Below are positions 28,175 to 32,562 of a stretch of DNA of 64,000 nt, piece by piece. The stretch is from Candidatus Salinicoccus stercoripullorum (GTDB lineage Bacteria > Bacillota > Bacilli > Staphylococcales > Salinicoccaceae). The stretch lies in the NCBI GenBank assembly GCA_019113295.1, contig DXHR01000025.1, positions 1 to 64,000 on the forward strand, written 5' to 3'. Below the pieces are notes generated by a model. That model was not told the origin of the DNA. It did not search any database and was given only the letters and a program-made list of their open reading frames with translations. Numbering within the stretch: the stretch's first letter is position 1; each line of letters opens with the position of its first letter. Position numbers and translations under genes: made by a program.

Positions 28175-30586
28175 TTATATGAAATATTCGAAAATAACAT
28201 CAGTCACTTCGCCGAACGTATTCTCATCCACTACGAACGAACCGTTGGAATATTTCCCACTGACCCGTATCGATTTTGCATTTAACCTGAACTCCGATGA
28301 TGCAGATTTGAGTACGATATCAATGTCATTTTTGATAAGTGCCGCATTCACAAGACGGTGGGGCTTCGATTTGATCTCCTTCAGCAGTGTGCTGCCGACC
28401 TGCGCCCGCCCCCCTGCTTCAAACATATCCAGATCAGTGCGTTTCACAGCCCCACGCTGGGAAACCGTGATGAGATGCGTCTCGCCTGAAATCAGTCCTG
28501 CCAGTATGATGCGGTCATCATCCTTGACATTCATCGCACGCACCCCCTGTGCTTTCAACCCGGTATTGTTTATGTCTGAAACAGGATATCTGAGTGTCAT
28601 TCCTTTGCGGGTCACAAGCATGACATCCTCATCTTTCGCAGACGTAAATTCAACAGAGACAACTCTGTCATCATCCTTCAGTCCCATGCCCGCAATCGGA
28701 CGTTTGATGCGGGAGGCTTCATATGCATCCAGCCCGGTCAGTTTGATCTGGCCCTTCCGTGTAGCCGTGACAACAGTGATTCCGGCGTCATATTCTTCCA
28801 CAAGGAATGCCCTGACCGGCACTTCATCCGTTTTGAGATTGAACCGGCTTGACAGATGCTGGCCGTTGTCCTTCCATTTGATGTCCTGCAGTTCGTGGAC
28901 AGGGATGATCATGTAGTTGCCGTAGTTGGTGAATACAAGGCAGTGCTGCAGTGTATGCCCTTCCTCCAGCATGATGAGTGTATCTTCCTGCTTCATGCCG
29001 ATTTCTGCAATGGTGCTTGCATTGAAGCTCCGCATGCTGGTCCGTTTGATGTAGCCGTCCCTTGTCACAGAGACCATGACTTCCTCTTTAGCGATGAGAA
29101 CTTCTTTCTCAAGTTCTATCGTCTGTATTTCATCCTCTATGACACTCCGCCGCGGGGAGGCATATTTTTTACGGATGTCTCTCAGTTCCTTCTTGATTAC
29201 GGACAGCAGTTTCTTTTCATTGCCGAGTATTTCCCTCAGCTGGTTGATTGTATATTCAAGTTCATTATGCTCCGTTTCAAGTTCGACGATATCCGTATTC
29301 GTCAGCCTGTACAATTGGAGCATGACGATGGCTTCCGCCTGGGCTTCAGTGAAATCGAACGCCTCCACCAGATTGTCCTTGGCATTCCGCTTGTTTTCCG
29401 ATTCCCGAATCACACGGATCACTTCATCCAGCATGGACAGTGCTTTCATCAGCCCTTCGATGATGTGCATCCGCTTTTCCGCTTCTTCGAGTTCATATTC
29501 AGAACGGTTGCGGATCACTTCCTTCTGATGTCTGACATATGCTTCCAGTATTTCTTTGAGTCCAAGAAGCTTCGGCGCCCGGTCGCTGATGGCCACCATA
29601 TTGAAGTTATAGGAAACCTGGAGGTCCGTCTTCTTGTAGAGGAAGTTGATGATCCCCTCGACATTTGCATCCTTCCGTGTTTCAACGACCACACGCTGGC
29701 CGTCACGGTCTGTTTCATCCCGGACTTCAATGATGCCGTCCACTTTCCGGTCTGCACGGATTTCGTCAATCTTCTTCACAAGGTTCGCCTTGTTCACTTC
29801 AAACGGCAGCTCATCGATGATGATATGCGTCTTGCCGCCTCTTACGTCCTCGGTCCTCACTTTACTGCGGACGATGATTTTTCCCTTGCCCGTTTCATAG
29901 GCTTTCCTGATCTCGGAGACACCCTGGATGATGCCGCCCGTCGGGAAATCCGGTCCTTGGATGATCGTCATCAGTTCATCGATCTTCACAGTCGGCTTAT
30001 CTATGATTTTGAGTGTCGCATCAATGACTTCCTCGAGGTTATGCGGCGGTATTTCCGTGGCATAGCCGGCGGATATTCCTGTCGTCCCGTTTACGAGCAG
30101 ATTCGGGAATTTGGCCGGCAGGACGACCGGTTCAACTTCTGTATCATCAAAGTTATTGATGAACTGCACTGTGTTTTTCCTGATATCCCTAAGCATTTCA
30201 TTGGAGATTTCAGACAGTCTCGCTTCTGTATAACGCATTGCAGCCGGCGGGTCCCCGTCCACGCTCCCTTTATTGCCGTGGATGGTTATGAGCTCTTCGC
30301 GCATCTTCCATTCCTGTGAGAGTCTCACCATAGCGTCATACACACTTATATCACCGTGCGGATGATAGTTACCGATGACATTACCCACAGTTTTGGCGGA
30401 TTTCCTGTACCCTTTCTCGAATGTGTTGCCCTCTTTGAACATCGCATACAGTATTCTTCTCTGGACCGGCTTCAGACCGTCCCTGACATCGGGAATCGCG
30501 CGGTCCTGGATCACATATTTACTGTACCGTCCGAAACGGTCGCCGATGACATCCTCCAGCTGGAGCTGCTGAATATAATCTGTCAT
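28175..30586 (-). CDS. parC: DNA topoisomerase IV subunit A
   Basis: [48 protein letters not shown]. Confidence 0.97.
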
Positions 30587-32562
30587 GAAGTTTCACCACT
30601 CTCTTCCAATTTTGCCACATCATCATTTTCAAGAATACTGTCCTGCTCCTCGAGCGTGAAACTCACATTCGATTCTATCCATTTACGCCTCATCTCAACA
30701 TTATCCCCCATGAGCGTCGTAACGCGTTTCAGCGACAATGCCTCATCTTCGATCCTCACCTGGATCAATGTGCGCGAATCCGGGTTCATCGTCGTCTCCC
30801 AGAGCTGGGCGGGCATCATTTCACCGAGACCTTTGTAGCGCTGGAGTTCGACGTTCTTACCCAGTTCCTTCTGTACCTCGGCCAGCTCATCCTCCGTCCA
30901 TACATAACGCACAACTTCCTTGCCCTTCACCTTCTTTTTCAACTGGAAGAGCGGAGGCAGTGCGATATAGATCTTACCTGCGTCGAATAAAGGCCGCATA
31001 TAATTGAAGAAGAACGTAAGAAGCAGAACCTGGATGTGTGCCCCGTCTGTATCGGCATCGGTCATGATGATGATCTTATCGTAGTTTGAATCCTCTACTT
31101 TGAACTCATTGCCGACTCCCGCGCCGATTGTATGGATGATCGTGTTGATTTCTTCATTTTTGAATATATCCTCAAATTTCGCTCTTTCGGTGTTGATCAC
31201 CTTACCGCGGAGCGGAAGAATGGCCTGGAACTTCCTGTCCCTGCCCTGTTTTGCAGATCCGCCGGCGGAATCCCCCTCGACCAGATACAATTCATTTTTC
31301 CTGGCATTCCTGCTCTGTGCCGGAGTCAGCTTTCCGGACAGGAGAGTATCCTTGCGCTTTTTCTTGCCATTCCTCGCTTCTTCGCGCGCCTTCCTTGCCG
31401 TTTCCCTGACTTTCCTTGCCCTGATGGCCTTCTTGACGAGCTGGGTGCTGAGCGCACCGTTCTCTTCGAGGTAGTAGGGAAGGTGATCAGACATAAGCGC
31501 CTCCATTACATTTCTCGCTTCACTCGTTCCGAGTTTACTCTTCGTCTGCCCTTCGAACTGGAGCAGATCTTCCGGGACTTTGACGGATACCACTGCAGTC
31601 AGGCCTTCCCGTATATCATTTCCTTCAAGATTTTTGTCTTTATCTTTCAGTTCATTGATTTTCCTCGCATATTCATTGAAGACACGCGTAAAACCTGTTT
31701 TGAAACCAACTTCATGTGTACCTCCGTCTTTCGTCCTCACGTTATTGACAAAGGAGATGATGGTTTCACTGTACTGATCATTGTATTGAAAGCTGACTTC
31801 GGCGAGTATACCGTTATATTCGCCGGAAAACATACTGATTTCACCGATGGAATCTTTGCCTTCATTCAGGAATCCGATGAACGCTTTCAAGCCGTCATCA
31901 TATTTGAAAGATTCTTCAAGTGGCTCCTCGGGGCGTCTGTCGGTTATGCTGATCTTCAGTCCCTTCTGGAGAAAGGCGGATTCACGCATCCTCTCCATGA
32001 TTGTTTCAAAATGGAACACCGTGCCTGATTTGAATATTTCCGGATCGGGTTTGAAAGTCACTTCTGTCCCGGTCTTTTTTGTCTTGCCGGTCACTTTCAG
32101 CGGACGGTCAACTTTACCGCCATCTTTGAATGACATCTCATGAATTTTGCCGTCCCTGAATATCCTGATTTCAACCCAGGAACTGAGAGCATTGACGACA
32201 GAAGCGCCGACGCCATGAAGTCCGCCGGCAGTCTTGTAGCCTCCCGAACCAAATTTCCCGCCGGCATGCAGCACCGTGAAGATCACTTCCGGTGTCGGAC
32301 GACCGGAAGCATGTTTCCCTGTAGGCATGCCGCGACCATCGTCTGTCACTGTTATACTGTCATCCTTGTTGATCGTAATGGTAATTTCATCACCGTATCC
32401 ATTTATAATCTCATCCACAGAGTTGTCTGTAATCTCGTAGACAAGATGATGAAGTCCCCGTTGGTCCGTCGACCCTATATACATACCCGGCCGTTTCCGC
32501 ACTGCATCAAGGCCTTCCAATATTTGTATCGATTCATCTGTATAAGTATTCTGTCTTGCCAA
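30583..32562 (-). CDS. parE: DNA topoisomerase IV subunit B (TTG start inferred)
   Basis: RKRPGMYIGSTD, LPLRGKVINTE; start at TTG (LARQNTYTDESIQILEGL) with gggagg SD. Confidence 0.95.
   Translation of the reverse strand: MARQNTYTDESIQILEGLDAVRKRPGMYIGSTDQRGLHHLVYEITDNSVDEIINGYGDEITITINKDDSITVTDDGRGMPTGKHASGRPTPEVIFTVLHAGGKFGSGGYKTAGGLHGVGASVVNALSSWVEIRIFRDGKIHEMSFKDGGKVDRPLKVTGKTKKTGTEVTFKPDPEIFKSGTVFHFETIMERMRESAFLQKGLKISITDRRPEEPLEESFKYDDGLKAFIGFLNEGKDSIGEISMFSGEYNGILAEVSFQYNDQYSETIISFVNNVRTKDGGTHEVGFKTGFTRVFNEYARKINELKDKDKNLEGNDIREGLTAVVSVKVPEDLLQFEGQTKSKLGTSEARNVMEALMSDHLPYYLEENGALSTQLVKKAIRARKVRETARKAREEARNGKKKRKDTLLSGKLTPAQSRNARKNELYLVEGDSAGGSAKQGRDRKFQAILPLRGKVINTERAKFEDIFKNEEINTIIHTIGAGVGNEFKVEDSNYDKIIIMTDADTDGAHIQVLLLTFFFNYMRPLFDAGKIYIALPPLFQLKKKVKGKEVVRYVWTEDELAEVQKELGKNVELQRYKGLGEMMPAQLWETTMNPDSRTLIQVRIEDEALSLKRVTTLMGDNVEMRRKWIESNVSFTLEEQDSILENDDVAKLEESGETS

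Follow-up and report, generated by a model that had tools for sequence, protein, structure and literature searches.

A private isoleucine at residue 80 of ParC in a Salinicoccus genome: a resistance-type substitution probably reached through threonine

Residue 80 of the DNA topoisomerase IV subunit ParC is a classic site of fluoroquinolone resistance, and the parC gene studied here encodes isoleucine at this position. The questions were whether Ile80 is a background residue of its lineage, from which codon it arose, and whether it would lower drug sensitivity. The gene lies in a 64,000-nucleotide stretch of DNA (the window) on contig 21 of a Salinicoccus assembly of 2.29 Mb with a completeness of 99.93%. 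The product scored 1025 bits against the TIGR01061 parC_Gpos profile (curated cut-off 813), consistent with a Gram-positive ParC, and scored under the cut-offs of the GyrA profile models. The closest solved structure was Staphylococcus aureus ParC (2inr). Identity to ParC of the nearest species was 92% for Salinicoccus sediminis, 91% for S. halodurans, and 90% for S. carnicancri. The parE gene was located upstream, in a parE-parC operon arrangement, and the parC ATG and the parE stop codon overlapped by 4 bases. The start of parE is most likely the TTG at 32562, which is preceded by GGGAGGA; the start codon that would give the longest ORF lies 26 codons further upstream. The features are listed in Table 1.

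Table 1. Positions in the window of the topoisomerase IV genes and of the two drug-region codons of parC.
Feature	Position	Strand	Description
parC, DNA topoisomerase IV subunit A	28175..30586	minus	803-aa ORF, intact; TIGR01061 match; 2inr closest solved structure
parE, topoisomerase IV subunit B	30583..32562	minus	ORF and parE_Gpos score above cut-off
codon 80, ATA (Ile)	30347..30349	minus	ACA or ACG (Thr) in the three nearest species; other Salinicoccus encode Ser
codon 84, GAC (Asp)	30335..30337	minus	ordinary residue there; 33 Asp and 48 Glu among 81 ParC

Counting from the ATG gave I80, S81, V82, Y83, and D84. The alignment with S. aureus ParC contained no gap, with Ile80 opposite Ser and Asp84 opposite Glu. 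Both results agreed with the initial annotation, which had placed Ile at residue 80 and Asp at residue 84 from the sequence. Its description of Ile80 as a classic resistance-type residue was also borne out. Ser80Ile has been described in resistant isolates of two staphylococci, S. epidermidis and S. pseudintermedius (PMC7640383, PMC9494949). Asp84 had been regarded as natural, and this was confirmed by its frequency among the 81 ParC sequences and by S. epidermidis, in which Asp84 is the wild type (PMC7640383). Asp84 was thus ruled out as a second resistance change.

Among 12 Salinicoccus genomes, Ile80 was found only in the genome of the window. Three sister species carried Thr80 and the others Ser80, so Ile80 is not a common background residue, and a lineage-fixed background was ruled out. 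The initial annotation had proposed aligning related species, and had held that Ile80 in all related susceptible species, with low MICs, would mark a neutral background; the aligned relatives carried Thr or Ser instead. A ParC pattern search of the whole order matched 141 of 157 genomes. Residue 80 was Ser or Thr in 134 of these (94 Ser and 40 Thr; the Thr count is the search tally, and the Ser count is 141 minus the 40 Thr and the 7 others). The remaining seven had Ile (the window's genome, Jeotgalicoccus meleagridis CIP 111649, and genomes G030, G033, and G091), Leu (Nosocomiicoccus massiliensis NP2), or Arg (G132). Given this predominance of Ser and Thr, Ile80 is more than chance background. 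A pattern with a hydrophobic residue 80 was also searched at class level in 400 evenly sampled genomes, counting only genomes whose ParC fits the rest of the pattern; five matched, two of them GyrA-like by motif. Arg80 of G132, which belongs to genus group g14 of this order, was encoded by AGG, beside a wild-type GyrA.

The origin of the ATA codon was investigated with a ParC tree in which column 80 was masked. The window was sister to S. halodurans plus the pair S. sediminis and S. carnicancri, and the next branch outside was the outgroup Salinicoccus albus; both forks had a support of 99. Codon 80 was TCA (Ser) in S. albus, ACA, ACG, and ACA (Thr) in the three sisters, and ATA in the window. 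Ile80 most likely had Thr (ACA) as its immediate precursor, from which a single transition gives ATA. Judged from these codons, Ile80 would most likely have been reached by the single steps TCA to ACA to ATA, of which only the last is private to the window's genome. A direct double change from Ser to Ile was rejected as less parsimonious. The initial annotation was right that no Ser codon can be turned into ATA by a single base change. Its conclusion of an older or lineage-fixed state fails, because the sisters carry Thr and S. albus carries Ser, which leaves Ile as a change private among the 12 Salinicoccus genomes and Thr as its likely precursor. The Thr80 codons found in the order would all likewise become Ile codons by a single transition (ACN to ATN), except ACG, which would become Met.

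Within residues 1–490, the window differed from the three agreeing sisters at five residues (H4Y, Y50F, T80I, I301V, and I385M), and T80I was the only one inside the drug-region helix. At codons of this region identical across the three sisters, the window showed 14 synonymous and 3 non-synonymous differences, which suggested that the ParC domain is under purifying selection.

The other fluoroquinolone targets were unaltered at the classic sites. Codon 84 of gyrA, which the initial annotation had named as a check, encoded Ser; GyrA carried Ser84 and Asp88, both wild type and identical to the sisters at the classic sites. A GyrA change at S84/E88, which would make the double-target genotype of high-level resistance, was looked for and was absent. 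The ParE drug-region motifs EGDSAGGSA and PLRGKVIN showed no change. The GyrB drug-region motifs were intact, with no classic resistance change in the part of GyrB within the locus read. Compensatory or added ParE changes (K407R, K486R, and others) were considered and rejected, as none lies inside EGDSAGG and K486R is conservative. The N in the SSKNP motif of GyrB, in the part within the locus read, was rejected in the same role, being outside EGDSAGG.

A 205-aa pentapeptide-repeat protein was found on contig 24 of the window's genome (L156:1321-1938). Its best PDB match was 2w7z, which we take to be the Enterococcus faecalis Qnr. The NCBIfam Qnr profile gave 36.7 bits on this genome, far below the cut-off of 240. 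A plasmid-type Qnr was therefore ruled out, and this distant pentapeptide protein alone was found. A relative occurs in S. halodurans (L153), which has Thr80, so the protein does not track Ile80. Pentapeptide matches were also seen in two more Salinicoccus genomes (G004 and G006).

The quinolone keto acid binds a metal ion whose waters hydrogen-bond the Ser hydroxyl and the acidic residue four positions on, and changes at these two residues weaken this water-metal-ion bridge (PMC11019561, PMC9917921). In Bacillus anthracis topoisomerase IV, the bridge is mainly a binding contact (PMC11019561, PMC9917921). The Ser/Thr hydroxyl at ParC 80 is replaced in the window, with Thr80 as the inferred ancestor. 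Thr would keep the hydroxyl anchor of the bridge and Ile would lose it, while Asp84 would stay as the second anchor. Because Ile has no hydroxyl and is bulkier, the drug would be expected to bind the topoisomerase IV cleavage complex less well. As Ile80 is one base change from the Thr of the closest relatives, it probably lowers drug sensitivity. With GyrA, GyrB, and ParE unaltered at the classic sites, the expected effect would be first-step, low-level resistance, as where topoisomerase IV is the primary target. Reasoning from the gene sequences, we consider it fairly probable that Ile80 represents a single ParC alteration of the first-step type, with loss of the hydroxyl anchor and at most modest fluoroquinolone resistance; the effect on sensitivity is probably modest.

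Several observations count against this drug effect. In the Ser80Ile isolates cited above, the ParC change is always paired with a GyrA change (PMC7640383, PMC9494949), and GyrA of the window's genome is wild type. Bacilli differ at residue 80 even where no drug is involved. A neutral or nearly neutral drift, in which the site tolerates Ser, Thr, and Ile, and Ile was fixed without drug, has perhaps one chance in three by our estimate; such an Ile could still lower sensitivity intrinsically. Position 80 required 12 parsimony changes over the 81 ParC sequences, mostly between Ser and Thr, a count that equals or exceeds those of roughly three quarters of columns 1–490, and this lability keeps drift a viable rival. 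Ile80 with GyrA Ser84 also occurs in G030, G033, and G091. The residue has been called conserved but nonessential, with a natural Ala in Mycobacterium tuberculosis gyrase (PMC11019561). However, a residue lacking the hydroxyl is rare, with 7 cases among the 141 genomes of the order, and some of these cases, as in J. meleagridis, coincide with known resistance combinations. The literature on fluoroquinolone testing of Salinicoccus is sparse, and searches for phenotype records of the window's own strain found none; in the S. roseus RF1H paper, norfloxacin and nalidixic acid were tested and are absent from the resistance list.

One base decides between Ile and Thr at codon 80, and a base-calling or assembly error at 30348, with the coding-strand C read as T, would produce the same codon. 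Such an error is very improbable, with codon 80 inside an intact ORF of a nearly complete genome and nearby synonymous differences marking a distinct lineage.

Ile80 in ParC of the window is a true, private substitution of a well-known resistance type, and Salinicoccus joins the genera with a resistance-type ParC. It changes no known mechanism. Across much of the order, both Ser and Thr are usual residues at ParC 80, a point of relevance where resistance callers assume Ser80. Tentatively, with roughly one chance in three, a halophilic environmental species may have fixed a resistance-type topoisomerase IV via Ser, Thr, and Ile without clinical drug use, and the Thr80 lineages (40 of 141) would stand one transition away from the same state.

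Compared with the ParC/GrlA Ser80Ile/Phe/Tyr alleles of staphylococci and Escherichia coli, the window has the identical helix-4 residue, with no gap in the alignment to S. aureus ParC, and likewise Ile. It differs in that Ile most likely came from Thr rather than Ser, that no GyrA change accompanies it, and that the genus, a relative of the staphylococci, is salt-loving and mostly environmental, Ile80 being known here from sequence. N. massiliensis NP2 belongs to the same family and also has a hydrophobic residue at position 80 and a wild-type GyrA (Ser84). Its residue, however, is Leu (TTG), and the species is reported to be ciprofloxacin-resistant in its species description (PMC3910558). 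J. meleagridis CIP 111649, of the same family, shares Ile80, but its codon, ATT, differs by a single base from the Ser codon AGT found in J. marinus, and its GyrA carries S84F (TTT) as well. GyrA S84F with ParC I80 is the classic double fluoroquinolone-resistance genotype. Genome G016, with codons as in J. marinus, has Ser at both GyrA 84 and ParC 80. By analogy, N. massiliensis (Leu80 with wild-type GyrA, reportedly ciprofloxacin-resistant) and J. meleagridis (Ile80 with GyrA Phe84) would support a reduced sensitivity in the window's genome.
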